Positions 45,779 to 53,610 of a stretch of DNA of 63,435 bases are shown here, piece by piece. Numbering within the stretch: the stretch's first letter is position 1; every line of letters begins with the position of its first letter. The position numbers were made by a program, and so were the translations under genes. Origin of the DNA: Alphaproteobacteria bacterium (GTDB lineage: Bacteria > Pseudomonadota > Alphaproteobacteria > RF32 > CAG-239); contig JAGBDC010000004.1 of assembly GCA_017937705.1 (NCBI GenBank), positions 1 through 63,435 on the forward strand, read 5' to 3'. Below the pieces are notes generated by a model that worked only from the letters and a program-made list of their open reading frames with translations, was not told the origin of the DNA and ran no database searches.

Positions 45779-46133
45779 TATCATATTTCCCATATTTATT
45801 TTGTGACTTTTGCTAATATAATCAATTTTATGCGGTAATACAACAATTAAACTTTTTTAGAGCTGTTTTTATGGATAAAATAATTCTTTTAGAATCAATG
45901 AGTTAGATTTAACTATTTGATTTTACATAAATAAAAAATAGTCCACAGCATAATCTGTAATTAAAAAAATTTTTTTTGTCGTTTTTATAATAGGGTAGGT
46001 GATTTAAAGCATTTTTGTTTTCAAATTTTAGGAAATGGGTATTGCTGAAAAGTGTAGTTTATAGCACTATAGACGAAGATTATTTTTCTTGCCGATTCAA
46101 AGCCGAAAGATAGAAGTTTAAAAAGCTGTGAAT
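45779..46133. other. Gene-free stretch upstream of nrdD
   Basis: This very AT-rich stretch has no convincing reading frame. It has a short inverted repeat TATAGCACTATA (46060-46071) whose arms resemble half NrdR sites. Nothing like a tRNA or known small RNA is visible. Confidence 0.5.
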
Positions 46134-46176
46134 ACTATATATAGTTTATTTACTTTTTTTTAATACTATATATAGT
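46134..46176 (+). promoter_or_regulatory. Two NrdR boxes
   Basis: ACTATATATAGT occurs perfectly at 46134-46145 and again at 46165-46176, 31 bases apart centre to centre, or about three helical turns. Tandem sites of this sequence and spacing are the operators of NrdR, the ATP/dATP-sensing repressor of ribonucleotide reductase genes. They lie 52 bases before nrdD, where they can cover the promoter. Confidence 0.9.
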
Positions 46177-46227
46177 ACACAAGAAAATAAATGAGCAACC
46201 ACTAAAATAGAAGGAAAAAAAGTTAAA

Positions 46228-48282
46228 ATGTCTAACCACGAATATGAAGCATCGAAGATAGCTAACAGCACAAAAATCTCCAATGTTACCAAAAGAGATG
46301 GTACATTAGCTCCATTCGATAGTGATAAAATTTTTAATGCTATTCGAAAAGCAGGAGAGTCTACCGGAGAATTTGGAGAACAAGAATGCTATCTTTTGAC
46401 CGGACAAGTTTTGAAAGTTTTAGAACACAAATTTACAGATTCTTTACCGACAATTGAATGTATACAAGATGTTGTTGAGCAAGTATTGATTTCAGCAAAC
46501 TATTTTGCTACTTCCAAAGCTTATATTTTGTATCGTGATCAACGTTCTCGTGCTCGTAGTGATAAAAAGGTTGTGGTTGATGTTGAAAGTTCTATCAATG
46601 AATATCTTAATAAATTGGATTGGCGTGTAAATGCCAATGCTAACCAAGGATATTCTAACGGTGGTCTTATTTTGAATGTTTCCGGTAAGGTTACGGCTAA
46701 CTATTGGTTAAGCCACGTTTATCCTGCTAATGTCGGAGAAGCTCACCGCAATGGCGATATTCATATTCATGACTTGGATATGTTAGCTGCTTATTGTGCC
46801 GGTTGGTCTTTGAAAAACTTGCTTCATGAAGGTTTTAACGGTGTTCCGGGCAAAGCTGAAGCCGGTCCTGCAAAACATCTTTCGGCAGCAATAGGTCAAA
46901 TGGTTAACTTTATGGGAACTTTGCAAAATGAATGGGCCGGAGCGCAAGCGTTTTCTTCCGTAGATACATATTTGGCTCCGTACATCAGAGCAGATAATTT
47001 GAATTATGAGCAAGTAGAACAATGTTTCCAAGAGCTTATTTATAACTTGAATGTTCCTTCTCGTTGGGGATCACAAACTCCGTTTACAAACTTTACTTTT
47101 GACTGGGTATGTCCGGAAGATTTGCGTGATAAGCACCCATTGATTGCAGGTGTTGAACAATCATTTACTTATGGCGAATTGCAAAAAGAAATGGATATGA
47201 TTAACAAGGCATATATTACCGTTATGATGAAGGGTGATATTAAAGGTCGTCCGTTTACTTTCCCGATTCCTACCTACAACATGACTCCTGATTTTCCGTG
47301 GGAAGATGAGAATACCGTTTTGTTATTTGAAATGACAGCAAAATATGGTTTGCCTTATTTTCAAAACTTTATCAATTCAGTATTAAAACCGGGACAAATT
47401 CGTTCTATGTGTTGCCGTTTGCAACTGGATTTGCGCGAATTGTTGGCTAAAGGTAACGGTTTATTCGGTTCTGCTGAACAAACAGGTTCAATCGGTGTGG
47501 TCACATTTAACTGTGCTCGTTTGGGATATGTATATAAAAATAACGAAGCAGGATTGTTTGCTCGTGTTGACGAATTGATGAACATTGCCCGCACATCATT
47601 AGAGTTAAAACGTAAAACAATCCAAGAGTTGATTGATAAAGGTTTATTCCCGTTCACCAAACGCTATTTGGGAACATTAAGAAATCACTTCTCTACCATT
47701 GGTGTTAACGGTATTAATGAAATGATTGCCAACTATACTGACGGAAAACACGATATCGGTGATGAATGGGGACGTGCATTTGCTGAAAAATTCTTGGATT
47801 ATATTCGTGCTCGTTTAGTGAAAATTCAAGAAGAAACCGGTCACATGTATAACCTCGAAGCAACTCCGGCCGAAAGTGCAACATACCGTTTTGCTCGTGA
47901 AGATAAAAAACGCTTTATCGGTATTATTCAAGCCGGAACAGAAGAGAATCCTTATTATACAAACTCTTCACAATTACCGGTTGACTATACGGACGATCCG
48001 TTTGAAGCTTTAGAATTGCAATCTAATTTGCAATCAAAATATACCGGAGGAACCGTTTTGCACCTCTATATGGGACAAAGCATATCTTCTCCGCAGGTTT
48101 GCCGTGACATTGTTCGTCGTGTGCTGACCAACTACAGATTACCGTACATTACAATTACTCCGACTTTCTCCGTTTGCCCGAAGCACGGTTATATTTCAGG
48201 AGAGCACAAATTCTGTCCGAAGTGTGATGAAGAGCTTTTGGCAGAAAAAAGAAAGGCTGCCGCTTCTGTAGAAGTTGCATAA
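46228..48282 (+). CDS. nrdD: Anaerobic ribonucleoside-triphosphate reductase, catalytic part without glycyl-radical site
   Basis: The 684-residue class III reductase makes dNTPs from NTPs under anaerobic conditions. An ATP-cone (~18-105, TKRDGTLAPFDSDKIFNAIR) precedes the ten-stranded barrel (HIHDLDMLAAYCAGWSL, SRWGSQTPFTNFTFDW, SMCCRLQLDLRELLAKG). The zinc site (CPKHGYISGEHKFCPKC) lies near residue 660. After it, normal NrdD proteins run on into the RVxGY glycyl-radical loop, but this one stops at EELLAEKRKAAASVEVA. The loop is on the next gene. Two NrdR boxes lie upstream and GAAGGAAAAAAAG serves as ribosome site. Confidence 0.95.
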   Translation: MSNHEYEASKIANSTKISNVTKRDGTLAPFDSDKIFNAIRKAGESTGEFGEQECYLLTGQVLKVLEHKFTDSLPTIECIQDVVEQVLISANYFATSKAYILYRDQRSRARSDKKVVVDVESSINEYLNKLDWRVNANANQGYSNGGLILNVSGKVTANYWLSHVYPANVGEAHRNGDIHIHDLDMLAAYCAGWSLKNLLHEGFNGVPGKAEAGPAKHLSAAIGQMVNFMGTLQNEWAGAQAFSSVDTYLAPYIRADNLNYEQVEQCFQELIYNLNVPSRWGSQTPFTNFTFDWVCPEDLRDKHPLIAGVEQSFTYGELQKEMDMINKAYITVMMKGDIKGRPFTFPIPTYNMTPDFPWEDENTVLLFEMTAKYGLPYFQNFINSVLKPGQIRSMCCRLQLDLRELLAKGNGLFGSAEQTGSIGVVTFNCARLGYVYKNNEAGLFARVDELMNIARTSLELKRKTIQELIDKGLFPFTKRYLGTLRNHFSTIGVNGINEMIANYTDGKHDIGDEWGRAFAEKFLDYIRARLVKIQEETGHMYNLEATPAESATYRFAREDKKRFIGIIQAGTEENPYYTNSSQLPVDYTDDPFEALELQSNLQSKYTGGTVLHLYMGQSISSPQVCRDIVRRVLTNYRLPYITITPTFSVCPKHGYISGEHKFCPKCDEELLAEKRKAAASVEVA

Positions 48283-48320
48283 CAAATGTTAATATGATAA
48301 AATAATTTATGGAGATAAAA

Positions 48321-48530
48321 ATGACAGTTGTAAATTTTGAAGATATTAAATTAAACGATTCTGAAAGACAGCCTTGTGAAGTTTGGACCAGAGTTATGGG
48401 CTATTTGCGTCCGGTTTCTGAGTTCAACAAAGGTAAAAAGTCAGAGTTTTATACACGTAAATATTTTGCAGAAAGCAAAGCCGTAATCGGTTGCGGATGT
48501 GAAAATATTTCAAGTATTGCTGCTGAATAA
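48321..48530 (+). CDS. Stand-alone glycyl-radical domain of anaerobic ribonucleotide reductase
   Basis: The 69-residue protein holds what is normally the C-terminal end of NrdD: CEVWTRVMGYLRPVSEFNKG, with the radical glycine at G27, then KKSEFYTRKYF. It ends with a CGC motif (VIGCGCENIS). It begins at ATG 48321 with its own GGAG ribosome site, 38 bases after the nrdD stop and in another frame. It is three bases from nrdG. The clean start, clean stop and preserved motif argue for a real split gene, not decay. It probably docks on NrdD in trans and is the substrate of NrdG. Confidence 0.9.
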   Translation: MTVVNFEDIKLNDSERQPCEVWTRVMGYLRPVSEFNKGKKSEFYTRKYFAESKAVIGCGCENISSIAAE

Positions 48531-48533
48531 TTT

Positions 48534-49247
48534 ATGATACAAGAAACGATTAGAGTCGGCGGTGTTGAAACATTCAGCACCGTCGATTTTCCTGAAAAGA
48601 TATGTGCAACGGTTTTTATGCAGGGATGCCCTTGGCGATGCCCGTTTTGTCATAATGCAATGTTGCAAGATATAAATACGGATAGCGGTTTTGTCTGGTC
48701 AAAATTTGTTGAATTTTTAAAAACCAGAACAAAATTGCTTGATGCTGTCGTTTTTAGCGGTGGTGAACCCTTAGTTCAAAACGGGCTTGAAACTGCAATA
48801 AAACAAGTTAAAGAACTTGGCTTTAAAATTGGTCTTCATACCGGCGGATATCGTCCCGAACATCTTGAAAAAATTATTCCGTTACTTGATTGGGTGGGCT
48901 TTGATATTAAGGCTCCGTTCGTTGATGATAAATATGAAAAAGCAATCGGAGTTTGTGTAAAAACGCAATTGCCTGCAGTATTAAAATCGCTGGACATTCT
49001 TCTTGCAAGCGGAATTGATTTTGAATGTCGTACAACTTGTGATCCGCGAATTTTGTCTATAAAAGATATCGAAAATATCGCCGTTTTTTTAGCAGACAAG
49101 GGTGTGAAAAAATACTTTTTACAAAAATATCGCCCGATTCCGTCAGATACGCAAACCAGTGATTCTGATTGTGAAAAATTCTTTGTAGATAAAGAGTTTT
49201 TATCGTCTCTGCAACAAAAATTCGAAGTGTTTGGTGTTCGTAAATAA
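48534..49247 (+). CDS. nrdG: Anaerobic ribonucleotide reductase activase (radical SAM)
   Basis: The 237-residue activase uses a [4Fe-4S] cluster and S-adenosylmethionine to place the radical on the glycine of the reductase. The cluster cysteines are C32, C36 and C39 (MQGCPWRCPFCHN). VVFSGGEPLVQNG is the SAM-binding GGE motif. The length fits the longer NrdG class. It starts three bases after the radical-domain gene, completing nrdD-radical domain-nrdG. Confidence 0.94.
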   Translation: MIQETIRVGGVETFSTVDFPEKICATVFMQGCPWRCPFCHNAMLQDINTDSGFVWSKFVEFLKTRTKLLDAVVFSGGEPLVQNGLETAIKQVKELGFKIGLHTGGYRPEHLEKIIPLLDWVGFDIKAPFVDDKYEKAIGVCVKTQLPAVLKSLDILLASGIDFECRTTCDPRILSIKDIENIAVFLADKGVKKYFLQKYRPIPSDTQTSDSDCEKFFVDKEFLSSLQQKFEVFGVRK

Positions 49248-49357: not shown

Positions 49358-50833
49358 ATGAGTGAGAAAAAATATACTGAAGAAGATATTGAAAGAGCAA
49401 AAGTATTTGTAGATTCATTGCTGGAAAAACCGGAATTTCAGGAAGAACTTAGAGTTGCTAAAGAATCTTTTAAGGATATGGTTGAGAAAAAAGATGGGAA
49501 AAACCACTTTGTAGAAGCTTTATCCGCTAGGAAAAAAATAAGTAATCATGTTTTGGATGAAATGAAAAAAACTGGCGATTTTGATATGTTTTTCGAAAAC
49601 AAAGATTCTATGTGGATGTCTGAATATGATGATATAGTAGGAGAGAGAATAGAAATTGAAGATTTAGAATATCATGCTTATAAGTACGGAAAACTTCCTG
49701 ATGGTTTTTTGGAAACAAAAGGGAATGTTAGTAGTGTAATGACTGCTGCTGAATATAAAGCTCTGCTTGCAGAAGCTAAAGAATTTAATCTACAACAAAA
49801 AGTTCAAGGTAAAATTAAAGACGGAGATTCTTTAAATCAAGAAAACCCGAAAACTGATGAAAATAATAAAAAATTAGCCGCAAATGAAATCGAATTAGTT
49901 GATGGTAAAGGTGACCAGCTCGTGGATGAAGACCAAGATTGGGTTCAGCGTTACGAAGCCATAATGAAGCAATATGCGGCTGACAATCAACAAGAGTGGG
50001 TTCGTGAAGAAAAAAATGAGGAAGGTCAGCCTTATGAGGGATTAAAAGGAAAAATCGGCGAAGCTGACTATCACTTTACTGCTCCTAATAGAGCACAATC
50101 TAATCTTGCCGGTATCGATGGTATAGTTGCACTTGCTCAAAAAGAAGGATTAAGCCTGGCATATAACAAAGAATGGAGTGATGAATTTAAGGCTGAAGTG
50201 ATGAAAGCTTGTGAAAAATATGGCGTTTCTATTGAAGGTATGCCGGAACAAGCTCAACAGCAAACAAAACAAGAAGAAGAGCCAACTCCTGCTCCGGTTG
50301 AAGAACAAAAAGAAGAACCGGCTCTTGATGATAACAAAGGACAAACCGAAGAAAAGAAGGCTGAGCCTAGTTATAAAGTAAATCCTAAAATTTCTACTGC
50401 AAAAATGGCTGATTATTCCAATAAAGTAAAGACACCTTTGGGAATCAAACAGTTGAAAACAGAGGTGGAAAAAGAAGAAAAATTATTGGCAGCAAGGGCA
50501 TATCAATCATCAGGGCAAGCTGTGGAGGATAAGGTTACAGCTGAAGTATTGATGAAAAAATATGCGATAGCTGTTAAGGAAGGAAATCAAGAAACAGCGG
50601 ATACTTGTGCATTGGCTCTGCAACGTTATGGTGTAGAGAATATTGTGAGAAATCCAAATGAAGAAAATGGTAAATACACCGTTGAAGCAGGAAAGCCATA
50701 TTCTGAACGTACTGACGAAGAAAAAGCCAAGATTAATGAAGCTTTGGATAAGAGTTTGCCGAAAAAACAAGAACAGTATAATCCGGAAGTATGGAATCAA
50801 CTTGCTCAAGCTAAGGCAAATAATACTAAGTAG
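49358..50833 (+). CDS. Large charged protein of unknown function, first of a paralogous pair
   Basis: The 491-residue protein starts at ATG 49358 after GGAGGCTTAAA. It has a helical N part, then a ~100-residue domain at ~195-300 (WVQRYEAIMKQYAADNQQEW ... IDGIVALAQKEGLSLAYNKE ... FKAEVMKACEKYGVSIEG). That domain recurs in the next gene and recalls the LPD7-type domain of mobile-element polyvalent proteins (Ala-rich helix, strand, helix, G-V/I strand). A Glu/Pro/Gln linker (~300-345) and a helical C part follow. There is no signal peptide or membrane segment. Family unknown; the LPD7 likeness is a guess from pattern. Confidence 0.78.
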   Translation: MSEKKYTEEDIERAKVFVDSLLEKPEFQEELRVAKESFKDMVEKKDGKNHFVEALSARKKISNHVLDEMKKTGDFDMFFENKDSMWMSEYDDIVGERIEIEDLEYHAYKYGKLPDGFLETKGNVSSVMTAAEYKALLAEAKEFNLQQKVQGKIKDGDSLNQENPKTDENNKKLAANEIELVDGKGDQLVDEDQDWVQRYEAIMKQYAADNQQEWVREEKNEEGQPYEGLKGKIGEADYHFTAPNRAQSNLAGIDGIVALAQKEGLSLAYNKEWSDEFKAEVMKACEKYGVSIEGMPEQAQQQTKQEEEPTPAPVEEQKEEPALDDNKGQTEEKKAEPSYKVNPKISTAKMADYSNKVKTPLGIKQLKTEVEKEEKLLAARAYQSSGQAVEDKVTAEVLMKKYAIAVKEGNQETADTCALALQRYGVENIVRNPNEENGKYTVEAGKPYSERTDEEKAKINEALDKSLPKKQEQYNPEVWNQLAQAKANNTK

Positions 50834-50887
50834 CTAAAACGTATCTCGTGTTGTTAATTATTAATATTTTGTAAAAAAAGTACAAAT

Positions 50888-50931
50888 TTGACAAAAAAGT
50901 GCTTGTCGCTATGATGTTTTTGTGTTATAGT
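50888..50931 (+). promoter_or_regulatory. Two overlapping promoters of the 50968 gene
   Basis: TTGACA (50888-50893) with TATGAT (50910-50915) at 16-base spacing, and TTGTCG (50903-50908) with TATAGT (50926-50931) at 17-base spacing, overlap just before the gene. Confidence 0.6.
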
Positions 50932-50967
50932 GCTTGCAAAATCAAGAATTAAACAGGAGACAAAACT

Positions 50968-53610
50968 ATGGACGCAAAGAAAGCCGCCCAAATTATAAAG
51001 TCAGGAAACTTTACTGCGAATGACTTTCAAATATTATATGCTGCATTGAACGGAAAAGACGAGTTTGCAGAAGAATTTAACGAATTGCGCAAAGCAATGT
51101 TAAAGTCTTATGCCGATGGTGAAAGTATTGAGGTTAATCAATCCGGAAAAGTTGATCAACAAGATGTTATGGTTGTTGATCAAAATGCTGATGAGCCATT
51201 AAGTCAGGAAAAACAACTGAAAGATGTTGAACCTTGGAAAATTCAACGTCGCCAAGAAATTATGCAATGGGCAGCAAAAAATAAGAATAGTGAAATTGCC
51301 GATATTAAGGCCAACAAAGATGGTTTGAGTACATCATTCAAAGATGGTACGCAAGTAAATTTTGTTGCTGAAAATCATGTTTCGGTCAAAACTCCTAATG
51401 AACCGAAAGCACAAAATTTTGATATGGTTGTTGCATTAGCCAAAAACAGCAACAAAAGGGTTAAGCTTGGCGAAAATATGTCTCCTGAATTTCGTGTAGC
51501 ATTAATCGAGGCTTGTGCAAAGTCAAATGTTCAAATCAGCAATTTATCGATTGAAGATTTAGATACGTATATGAAATTCTTGCCTAAACAAGAAGAAAAA
51601 CAGGTGTTGAATGTTGTTGAACAAAAGTCTCAAACTCAAACACAACAGCCACAAGCTGGTCAGCAACAAGCTGTTGCTAAAGAAGAGCCAACTCCGGCTG
51701 TGAAGGAAGAAAAAACAACTGTTACTACTCCTAAAGATAATGGAATTGCTCAGGTTGTGGCTGCAGTTGCTGCTCATGCTGAAGCCAAAGAAGCTGCTGA
51801 AGCTGCAAAATCGGCACCTAAAAAAGCAAGTAAAAATAAAGGCAGTGAAAGAATTGCTCAACAAGCTGCTGAAGCTGCAGTAATTGCTCGTGAAATACAA
51901 GCAATGGCAGGAAAACAAGCCGAACAAAAAACGGAACAACCTGCAACCGAGCAACCGACAGCAGAAACACCGGCTGTTTCAAACAATGAGAAAAAACAAG
52001 AAGCAAAGCCAACAAAAACTACAACACAGCATCCTGTTCAGAAAAAAGAAAATAAGGGTGCAAAACAGGATATTGCTTTCATTCCGGTTGCTCGTTCATT
52101 GCAAGAAGAACTTGAAGAGCAACCTGTTGCTGAACAAACTCCTGTGGTTGAAAGTAAAGGAACTAAAGACAAGTCTAAAGAAGAAAAAACTCCGATTGCC
52201 GGTAAGACCTCAGTTTCTGAAAAAGGTCAAAAATCAGTAACAGAAACTCCTGTTGCAGAACAACCGGGTACCCAATCTAAAGGTAGTACAACCGGAAAAG
52301 GACAGCCGGCTCCAAAACCTGCGGATAAAAAACAAGAACCTAAGAAAGAAGGTTTTTGGTCGAAATGGGGACGAAAAATCAAACATGGTGCGATTATTCT
52401 TGGAGTTGCAGTTGCTTCATTCTTCGTTGGGCGTTGCAGTAGTACCCCAACTGAGCAAGGAGCCGGAAACAACGACGGAGAAAAGGCTAAAACGGAGATT
52501 GTAACAAAACCGACAGTTACTCCGATTGTTGCAGATACATTGCAGAATGAAACTCCGGATGATACATTTGAACTCAAGATGGCTCCGACTAAATGGGATG
52601 CCAGCATGGGGATTACTGAAGCTCAATTTAATAATATGTACAATATTATTCATAAACATTCTCCTGATGGTGAACTATGGGGCAGAATGCATCTGAATGC
52701 TCAATTACATGCTGCAGAATTTAGTGCAGACGAAAATAATCCGATGACAGCAGAACAATTTATGTTCAAAGCTCTTCGTATGGCTGCATGGACAAATAAG
52801 CTCAATGGAAAAATTTGTGAAACTCATAATGCTGAATGGGCTCATAATTATAGCGGTGCATTTGGTCATGTTTTAGGTCCGACAATGGCTGTGCTCAAAT
52901 GTGGTGACCATATTGAGACTGAAACTTTGGAAAAAGCAAAAGTTATGTTGAGTGCGGTAGGTACAAACGGAAGTATTAATGTATTTACATTAGACAAGGT
53001 TGTTGCCGGAACATCTAAATTTAATAATCATGACGAACATGGTTGGATTATCGGTACTACAAGAAATGTTATGACCGGAATTGATAATGATTGTGGTAGA
53101 GAGTCTGAAGTTGAATTTAGAAGAGGTGGAGAAGTTACTCCTAAGCCTGTTCCTGAAAAGAAAGTAAAACCACAACCTCGCCAAGTTATAGAACAAGATA
53201 CGATTGTTGTGAAAAAAGATCCTATAACAATTGAAATCCCCGGCGATACAACAGTGGTAAAACAACCGGATGTTGTTATCGAAATTCCTGGTGATACTAT
53301 AGTTAATGTACCAACCAGAGCAGTTCCTGAAAAACCGCAACCGGAAGAAAAACTTCAAGTTAATATTGGTTCAAGAGCAAACTTGAGTGCTCGTCCGGCT
53401 GCAGAAGCTGTTGATCATACTCAAGAAGTTATTAGTAACGGAAGTGAACAGAATATGACAGCGGCACAACGCAGACAAGCTCGCAAAATGGCTAGAGAAA
53501 TGCTGGAAAGTGGCAGAATAGATCAAGATACCTATGATGCAATGCTTGACGAAATTAAAGAACCGACAGCGAGAAGTGCGGCGCCGATAAATTCTAACAC
53601 CGGTAGATAA
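50968..53610 (+). CDS. 880-residue single-pass membrane protein with low-complexity regions, second of a paralogous pair
   Basis: Order of parts: N-terminal helical segment (~1-50); the domain shared with the upstream gene (~90-195; IQRRQEIMQWAAKNKNSEI ... FDMVVALAKNSNKRVKLGEN ... FRVALIEACAKSNVQISN); Gln/Glu/Pro/Ala/Lys low complexity (~205-470); one membrane helix (~472-489, GAIILGVAVASFFVGRC); an unknown ~190-residue domain (~530-720, with MGITEAQFNNMYNIIHKHSP); two and a half 16-residue repeats built on DTxVV...IEIPG (~745-785); and a SHOCT-like tail (~830-865, AAQRRQARKMAREMLESGRI). Basic residues before the helix suggest the N part is cytosolic. Unknown family. AACAGGAGACAAAACT precedes the ATG. 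Confidence 0.82.
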   Translation: MDAKKAAQIIKSGNFTANDFQILYAALNGKDEFAEEFNELRKAMLKSYADGESIEVNQSGKVDQQDVMVVDQNADEPLSQEKQLKDVEPWKIQRRQEIMQWAAKNKNSEIADIKANKDGLSTSFKDGTQVNFVAENHVSVKTPNEPKAQNFDMVVALAKNSNKRVKLGENMSPEFRVALIEACAKSNVQISNLSIEDLDTYMKFLPKQEEKQVLNVVEQKSQTQTQQPQAGQQQAVAKEEPTPAVKEEKTTVTTPKDNGIAQVVAAVAAHAEAKEAAEAAKSAPKKASKNKGSERIAQQAAEAAVIAREIQAMAGKQAEQKTEQPATEQPTAETPAVSNNEKKQEAKPTKTTTQHPVQKKENKGAKQDIAFIPVARSLQEELEEQPVAEQTPVVESKGTKDKSKEEKTPIAGKTSVSEKGQKSVTETPVAEQPGTQSKGSTTGKGQPAPKPADKKQEPKKEGFWSKWGRKIKHGAIILGVAVASFFVGRCSSTPTEQGAGNNDGEKAKTEIVTKPTVTPIVADTLQNETPDDTFELKMAPTKWDASMGITEAQFNNMYNIIHKHSPDGELWGRMHLNAQLHAAEFSADENNPMTAEQFMFKALRMAAWTNKLNGKICETHNAEWAHNYSGAFGHVLGPTMAVLKCGDHIETETLEKAKVMLSAVGTNGSINVFTLDKVVAGTSKFNNHDEHGWIIGTTRNVMTGIDNDCGRESEVEFRRGGEVTPKPVPEKKVKPQPRQVIEQDTIVVKKDPITIEIPGDTTVVKQPDVVIEIPGDTIVNVPTRAVPEKPQPEEKLQVNIGSRANLSARPAAEAVDHTQEVISNGSEQNMTAAQRRQARKMAREMLESGRIDQDTYDAMLDEIKEPTARSAAPINSNTGR

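Follow-up and report, generated by a model that had tools for sequence, protein, structure and literature searches.

Introduction

The class III ribonucleotide reductases of Thermotoga maritima, phage T4, Prevotella copri, and Streptococcus thermophilus are single-chain enzymes. They share a barrel core, an ATP cone in some members, a radical loop of the RVxGY type, and the activase NrdG, and the loop forms the C-terminal end of the same chain. This work describes a split class III enzyme, in which the loop is instead encoded by a separate gene that is in places unlinked from nrdD. The starting point was the nrdD-nrdG locus of an alphaproteobacterium of family CAG-239 (contig JAGBDC010000004.1 of assembly GCA_017937705.1, positions 1 to 63,435); this whole stretch of 63,435 nucleotides is referred to here as the window. 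A sequence-only reading of the window had proposed that NrdD ends past its zinc site, that the radical loop is encoded by a separate 69-residue gene, and that the enzyme is completed in trans by a small, swappable radical carrier.

Free small glycyl-radical-loop proteins have been described from both host and phage, namely YfiD (GrcA) of Escherichia coli and Y06I of phage T4, and in this respect they resemble the small chain described here. Both are activated by the activase of their partner enzyme (PMC8683613). Pyruvate formate-lyase, the partner of YfiD, carries its own loop and turns to YfiD once oxygen has cleaved it, whereas the split NrdD has no loop, so its small chain should be obligate. 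The split class III enzyme is real and widespread; judging from gene sequences, we put the probability that it functions as a two-subunit reductase at roughly 0.9.

A radical loop encoded apart from NrdD

In the window, Pfam detects the ATP cone and the class III reductase core in NrdD, which continues through the zinc motif CPKHGYISGEHKFCPKC and an 18-residue tail to its stop, without a glycyl-radical loop (Table 1). The loop is found in the small protein, which matches positions 531-562 of PF13597 (E 3.3e-9) and no other family at E 0.001, whereas GrcA/YfiD is homologous to the C terminus of pyruvate formate-lyase. Taken together, the two proteins cover the PF13597 profile fully, with the break between positions 529 and 531. 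In comparisons with the sequences of solved structures, the alignment of NrdD to the T. maritima enzyme (4coi) ends at residue 612, and that of the small protein covers residues 614-647 of the same chain. The latter match is weak on its own (E 0.03); it places the glycine of RVMG on Gly621, the radical glycine of T. maritima NrdD (PMC4493059). Downstream of the nrdD stop, 38 bases precede the ATG of the small gene, which lies in another frame (48321-46228 = 2093, remainder 2) and is directly adjoined by nrdG, whose product scores above the TIGR02495 (NrdG2) cut-off. An alternative in-frame ATG at 48309 would yield 73 residues. The coordinates and the Pfam split thus confirm the arrangement that had been proposed, including the small gene's own GGAG and start.

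Table 1. Features of the split class III reductase locus (window coordinates)
Feature	Position	Strand	Details
nrdD	46228..48282	+	684 aa, TAA stop; PF03477 and PF13597 (2-529 of 562); NF006126/PRK08270
Zinc-site motif of NrdD, C650-P-x-H653 ... C663-P-x-C666	48175..48225	+	C650, H653, C663, and C666 invariant in 19 aligned NrdD; metal binding predicted
GGAG, likely ribosome-binding site of the small gene	48311..48314	+	From sequence
Separate glycyl-radical domain gene	48321..48530	+	69 aa; PF13597 531-562 only; ATG at 48321, stop 48528-48530
Radical-glycine codon GGC (RVMG*Y)	48399..48401	+	Aligns to Gly621 of T. maritima NrdD
nrdG, radical-SAM activase (NrdG2 type)	48534..49247	+	TIGR02495, 199 bits against a cut-off of 131
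Two NrdR-type boxes (ATACTATATATAGTTT, ATACTATATATAGTAC)	46132..46178	+	31 bp start to start; both cores exactly ACTATATATAGT

Directly after nrdG, the stretch from 49358 to 53610 holds two large open reading frames (491 and 880 aa) without a Pfam match above cut-off.

Distribution and conservation of the split

Among 131 genomes, comprising the window's own and those of relatives, the small protein matched in 78 and NrdD in 78, and the two sets differ by two genomes (G055, with the small protein only, and G009, with NrdD only, at a contig end). Three drawn surveys used profile A1, and a short open frame in them denotes a gene that is split, free, or cut by a contig end. The survey of the class matched 43 of 385 genomes, with 41 of 52 places in short open frames; the corresponding counts were 16 of 398 genomes and 13 of 16 places for the phylum, and 33 of 369 genomes and 27 of 34 places for the class of genome G512. 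The remaining places lie in frames of at least 600 codons, a length that can also arise by chance in GC-rich DNA, and represent fused NrdD as far as inspected; the exception is a fused frame of 331 codons at a contig end (G126). Most surveyed genomes lack any match, and the free or split form prevails among those that match.

For named organisms, the best 80 of at least 545 stretches encoding relatives were scored. A tblastn-based tally gave 68 split, 11 free, and 1 fused locus, superseding a motif-based count of 66 split, 13 stand-alone, and 1 fused. The locus scored as fused by the script (L160, Massilia) nevertheless has a start codon before the loop and a frame of just 234 codons. Among the named organisms, the split occurs in Rugamonas apoptosis, a Duganella, Janthinobacterium psychrotolerans, Thauera linaloolentis, Parasutterella secunda, Devosia sediminis, and Rhodopseudomonas faecalis, and the split is plasmid borne in Paracoccus ferrooxidans and Cupriavidus necator H16. 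Metagenome-assembled genomes that carry the labels Omnitrophota, Acidobacteria, Elusimicrobia, and Geobacteraceae hold further split loci. In existing records, the small gene is in some cases annotated as nrdD or as a "hypothetical protein." These carriers take the split beyond this genome and beyond gut Alphaproteobacteria. One family genome that already has an nrdD-small gene-nrdG operon holds a second, cut by a contig end (L065 3510-5067, contig 9 of G039).

With the 74 viral loci set aside, the collected loci, some of which overlap, gave 249 host places: 193 split, 39 free, and 17 fused. In 143 non-identical split loci, the small gene occupies relative frames 0, 1, and 2 in 38, 57, and 48 cases, and the gap to nrdD ranges from -41 to 244 nucleotides (nt), with a median of 33. 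An nrdG match is present in the same locus in 140 of the 143, mostly less than 100 nt from the small gene's stop. The starts of the small genes in these loci were chosen partly by Shine-Dalgarno match, and the Shine-Dalgarno tally is not independent of that choice. This conservation, with matches in 78 of 131 genomes and 143 non-identical split loci, excludes chance. The ratio of nonsynonymous to synonymous polymorphism (pN/pS), computed over 38 codons, was 0.078 for 12 same-genus small genes, 0.136 for 9 free sequences, and 0.175 for 4 prophage sequences; by these estimates, the small gene is under purifying selection. The radical glycine is retained in the best match of all 249 host loci and of all 74 viral loci; the patterns of the viral scan did not contain the glycine, and one of the two patterns for named genome loci did.

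A sole reductase and genes that lie apart

The genome of the window (1.58 Mb, 99.15% complete) has one nrdD and an NrdR gene. It gave no match to the class I/II large subunit (PF02867), although 11 of 14 control genomes did in the same search. Judged by its genome, the organism has no ribonucleotide reductase but the two-piece class III enzyme, and the second full-length nrdD that might have made this copy redundant was not found. In 41 further family genomes, chosen for search, a class I/II subunit was present in 7 and not found in 34; two of the latter (G024 and G055) yielded no nrdD either.

In 24 genomes searched for NrdD, of which 22 had it, the radical-loop gene lies away from nrdD in four. 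The contigs of nrdD and of the loop gene are 2 and 23 in G344, 67 and 41 in G370, and 41 and 16 in G176, while in G777 a single contig holds both genes, 9 kb apart. In none of the four does the stretch taken downstream of nrdD contain a loop gene, and each genome gave a single loop match in the surveys. A class I/II reductase was found in G777 and not in G344, G370, or G176. Since the genes of the latter three lie apart and no class I/II enzyme was found, their sole reductase would, if no copy was missed, be made of two separately encoded chains, which leaves almost no alternative to assembly in trans in these three. Assembly in trans, as put forward by the sequence-only reading, is strongly supported by these four genomes.

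Evolutionary history

A tree of NrdD was built from 145 cores cut before the loop (133 split and 12 fused), leaving out the partial fused sequence of G126, which was too short. All split rows group in a single clade (136 rows; Shimodaira-Hasegawa-like approximate likelihood ratio test [SH-aLRT] support, 97), which also includes three fused rows (L273-L275), and the split/fused label needs 2 changes on the tree, compared with 11.7 in shuffles. This looks like one fission and one re-fusion; support is weak (8 to 88) for the branches near L273-L275, and the tree has two flagged long-branch joins. NrdD and the small chain are co-inherited, with a Mantel r of 0.82 across 121 loci. The resolution of the small-protein tree (48 columns) is too poor for phage acquisitions to be counted: it has 25 changes, just 2 of them forced by starred branches.

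NrdR-type boxes and additional host copies

With up to 3 mismatches allowed, the window contains no pair at 31 bp other than the two boxes upstream of nrdD, and their spacing is that published for NrdR sites, which have 15-16 bp spacers (PMC12051234). Two to four small-gene matches occur in 11 of the 78 matching genomes. One kind of extra copy is free and away from phage genes, for example before clpB (L053), and other free copies lie near genes read by eye as htpX and an ATP synthase operon. All seven such copies from the family (L053, L059, L060, L061, L066, L067, and L070) have a box pair at 31 bp, as do three further loci from named rumen organisms, which share their sequence type (L113, L114, and L116); in these ten copies, the pair lies 79-96 bp before the small-gene start. 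Across 112,530 bases from 13 family loci, read on the given strand at a spacing of 31 or 32 bp, there are seven pairs, and all seven precede these small genes. Under a broad criterion (up to 3 mismatches per box, 28-35 bp), a box pair of any kind is found in 16 of 39 free-copy records. Of the linked records, 77 of 134 have a pair of this consensus.

The second kind of extra copy resides on mobile DNA. An integrase gene (PF00589) adjoins the small gene in all five prophage loci tested (L051, L062, L064, L068, and L069). This position raised the possibility that phages integrate into the small gene, but the prophage copies look whole and have their own starts, and in L051 a tRNA lies beyond the integrase. 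Our preferred reading is that the prophage small gene is a cargo gene. The same prophage stretch appears twice in contig 42 of G046 (L051 and L052, ~42.1 kb apart); either the assembly ran past one full turn of a circular phage genome or two prophages stand in tandem. Two free small genes on short contigs of another genome (L055 and L057, G076) have neighbors that, by eye, resemble genes of mobilisable elements.

Phage copies

The IMG/VR database yielded 74 matching loci. Within up to 8 kb on each side, 73 of these 74 viral loci show no nrdD match and none shows an nrdG match. When PF13597 was run on 40 whole viral records, which may be fragments, 39 matched only from position 526 on, 1 gave no match, and none contained the core. 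On eight viral contigs (L175, L177, L184, L191, L204, L207, L214, and L235), one neighbor gene each, picked by size or position, was scanned, and all eight match phage families: reverse transcriptase, virion protein, helicase, integrase, dUTPase, terminase, tape measure, and tail fibre. Four viral small proteins tried against PHROGs were all nearest to phrog_4132, a family of unknown function. Searching INPHARED (50,697 records) with the window's small protein returned a single match, annotated as an anaerobic ribonucleoside triphosphate reductase, in the ANMV-1 virus, and no free small gene at the sensitivity of that query; the phage claim is therefore limited to IMG/VR contigs and prophages. 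The idea that the small chain is swappable in the manner of YfiD gains support from these copies and from the unlinked copies with NrdR-type boxes; the exchange itself is what we infer from them.

In certain phage copies, the radical loop seems to be preceded by ~70-115 additional N-terminal residues (L069 4620-4973, phrog_4132). The reverse transcriptase of one small-gene phage (L175 4665-5813, phrog_1423) resembles, by eye, open reading frames in two prophage loci (L051 1897-3030 and L068 2241-3392), and it is possibly part of a diversity-generating retroelement.

Proposed mechanism and alternative explanations

In the mechanism we propose, the enzyme would consist of two separately translated catalytic chains: an NrdD with the ATP cone, the barrel with its catalytic cysteines, and the zinc site, and a 69-residue glycyl-radical subunit. 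The small chain would dock where an ordinary NrdD has its C-terminal domain, NrdG would take hydrogen from Gly27 of the small chain, and the docked loop would hand the radical to the active-site cysteine, after which reduction would follow the usual class III course. Oxygen destroys the radical loop, and a loop lost in this way could be renewed with an 8-kDa chain rather than a whole 77-kDa enzyme. Lineages would retain extra copies under the same NrdR-type boxes, and phages might bring their own copy to sustain the synthesis of deoxynucleoside triphosphates (dNTPs). The broader picture is well motivated, but its truth seems to us evenly poised; in it, a large class III clade would have turned its oxygen-labile radical site into an exchangeable cartridge, with spares in the NrdR regulon and with phages and mobile elements carrying the cartridge alone as a means of seizing the anaerobic dNTP synthesis of the host or releasing it from control.

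The docked arrangement was modelled with the chains joined by the native spacer, using 26 rows (model 1) and 66 rows (model 2). The closest solved structures are 4u3e, 8p23, and 9d3x; the comparisons included Foldseek against the Protein Data Bank for model 1 and VIA-align for model 2.

Several observations weigh against the two-subunit reading or its extensions. The native spacer helped docking in the models, and the aligned range gives ends only. The glycine loop of model 2 is of middling confidence (block mean predicted local distance difference test score [pLDDT], 62), and in the shallower model 1, residues 712-757 fall under 50. Co-inheritance of NrdD and the small chain is expected from shared descent. 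Most genomes are drafts, and a second copy may possibly have been missed where the genes lie apart. Several free copies, for example, those of f74 (L284, L286, and L288), have no box pair of this consensus, nor does any of the seven copies classed as prophage (L051, L062, L063, L064, L068, L069, and L163). Finally, the two-chain enzyme is known here from its genes.

Two alternatives would restore a single chain. A frame error, a programmed frameshift, or stop read-through could join the two frames, and the genes do adjoin in most loci and are co-inherited. However, the break recurs in 143 non-identical loci in all three relative frames and with widely varying gaps, the window's small gene has its own start with a Shine-Dalgarno-like GGAG, and in four genomes the genes are on different contigs or 9 kb apart; the frame or sequencing error that the sequence-only reading had named as a refutation is very improbable as an explanation, as are a programmed frameshift and read-through. 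We give hardly more than nominal weight to ligation or trans-splicing of the small protein to NrdD after translation: it would give back the ordinary chain, but NrdD tails and small-chain heads differ in length and sequence (no search for intein or ligation motifs was made).

The remaining alternatives question what the pieces do. NrdD has lost a catalytic segment, as a decayed, nonfunctional enzyme might have, with dNTPs coming from another reductase or from salvage. Against such decay stand the low pN/pS of the small gene, its occurrence in three genome surveys, the retained NrdR-type boxes, and the lack of another reductase in the genome, and the NrdDG system of C. necator H16, whose NrdD is split, is cited as essential for complete denitrification (PMC2864759); we find decay scarcely credible. 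More probable, though still unlikely, is the possibility that phage and mobile copies are decoys: by occupying NrdD or NrdG in place of the host's small chain, they would stop or redirect host DNA synthesis. These copies come without NrdD and NrdG, and the prophage ones lack the NrdR-type pair and are thus probably expressed apart from the host system. On the other hand, the radical glycine, which a decoy need not keep, is present in every viral locus, pN/pS is low in the four prophage sequences, and T4 Y06I restores its partner enzyme (PMC8683613). The two-subunit enzyme, with phage copies that may serve it, is our preferred reading.

Comparison with known systems

Other reductases are divided between genes in different ways. 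NrdJa/NrdJb likewise spreads a reductase over two genes, but it is a class II B12 enzyme, and its PF02867 core was not found in the window's genome. Six cases of split nrdD in phages consist of pieces that arose from introns, inteins, or unexplained fragmentation, with no conserved free radical-loop gene in the account given (PMC3653736). The nrdDG locus on plasmid pHG1 of C. necator H16, in contrast, has the same arrangement as the window: a 676-aa NrdD ending in the zinc motif, a 66-aa radical-loop gene, and nrdG. The literature searched, with most subscription journals outside its coverage, yielded no account of class III reductases whose radical loop has its own gene. The suggestion that no characterized class III enzyme is built in this way needs correction, since the pHG1 enzyme, known from genetics, has the split.

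In this locus (L257 771-3144), the C. necator H16 NrdD has a mass of 76.19 kDa, and its zinc loop, CPTHG, contributes the glycine at position 650; RVMGY belongs to the separate 66-codon coding sequence, annotated nrdD. Siedow et al., in 1999, reportedly described a 76.2-kDa NrdD with nrdD and nrdG only, in which G650A abolished function and Gly650 was taken as the radical glycine. If so, Gly650 was probably misassigned as the radical glycine, and the result would need rereading. The same study is cited for NrdDG being essential to complete denitrification, and the nrdDG genes of strain CH34 are Rmet_5137 and Rmet_5139 (PMC2864759).

If the proposed reading is true, the split enzyme is a natural example of a class III reductase with its radical site on a protein of its own, in strains in which no other reductase was found. 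With the radical chain separate, installation, docking, and catalysis become parts that can be mixed and titrated. The role of the radical domain in dATP inhibition is disputed (PMC11226230 versus PMC12662201), and a free radical domain bears on this dispute because it is open to binding studies. The split also suggests a function for the phage genes near phrog_4132. Andorfer et al. (2021) named only YfiD and Y06I as validated spare parts, both for pyruvate formate-lyase, and noted that others may exist for other glycyl radical enzymes (PMC8683613); the small genes described here are direct candidates for the spare parts of ribonucleotide reductase.

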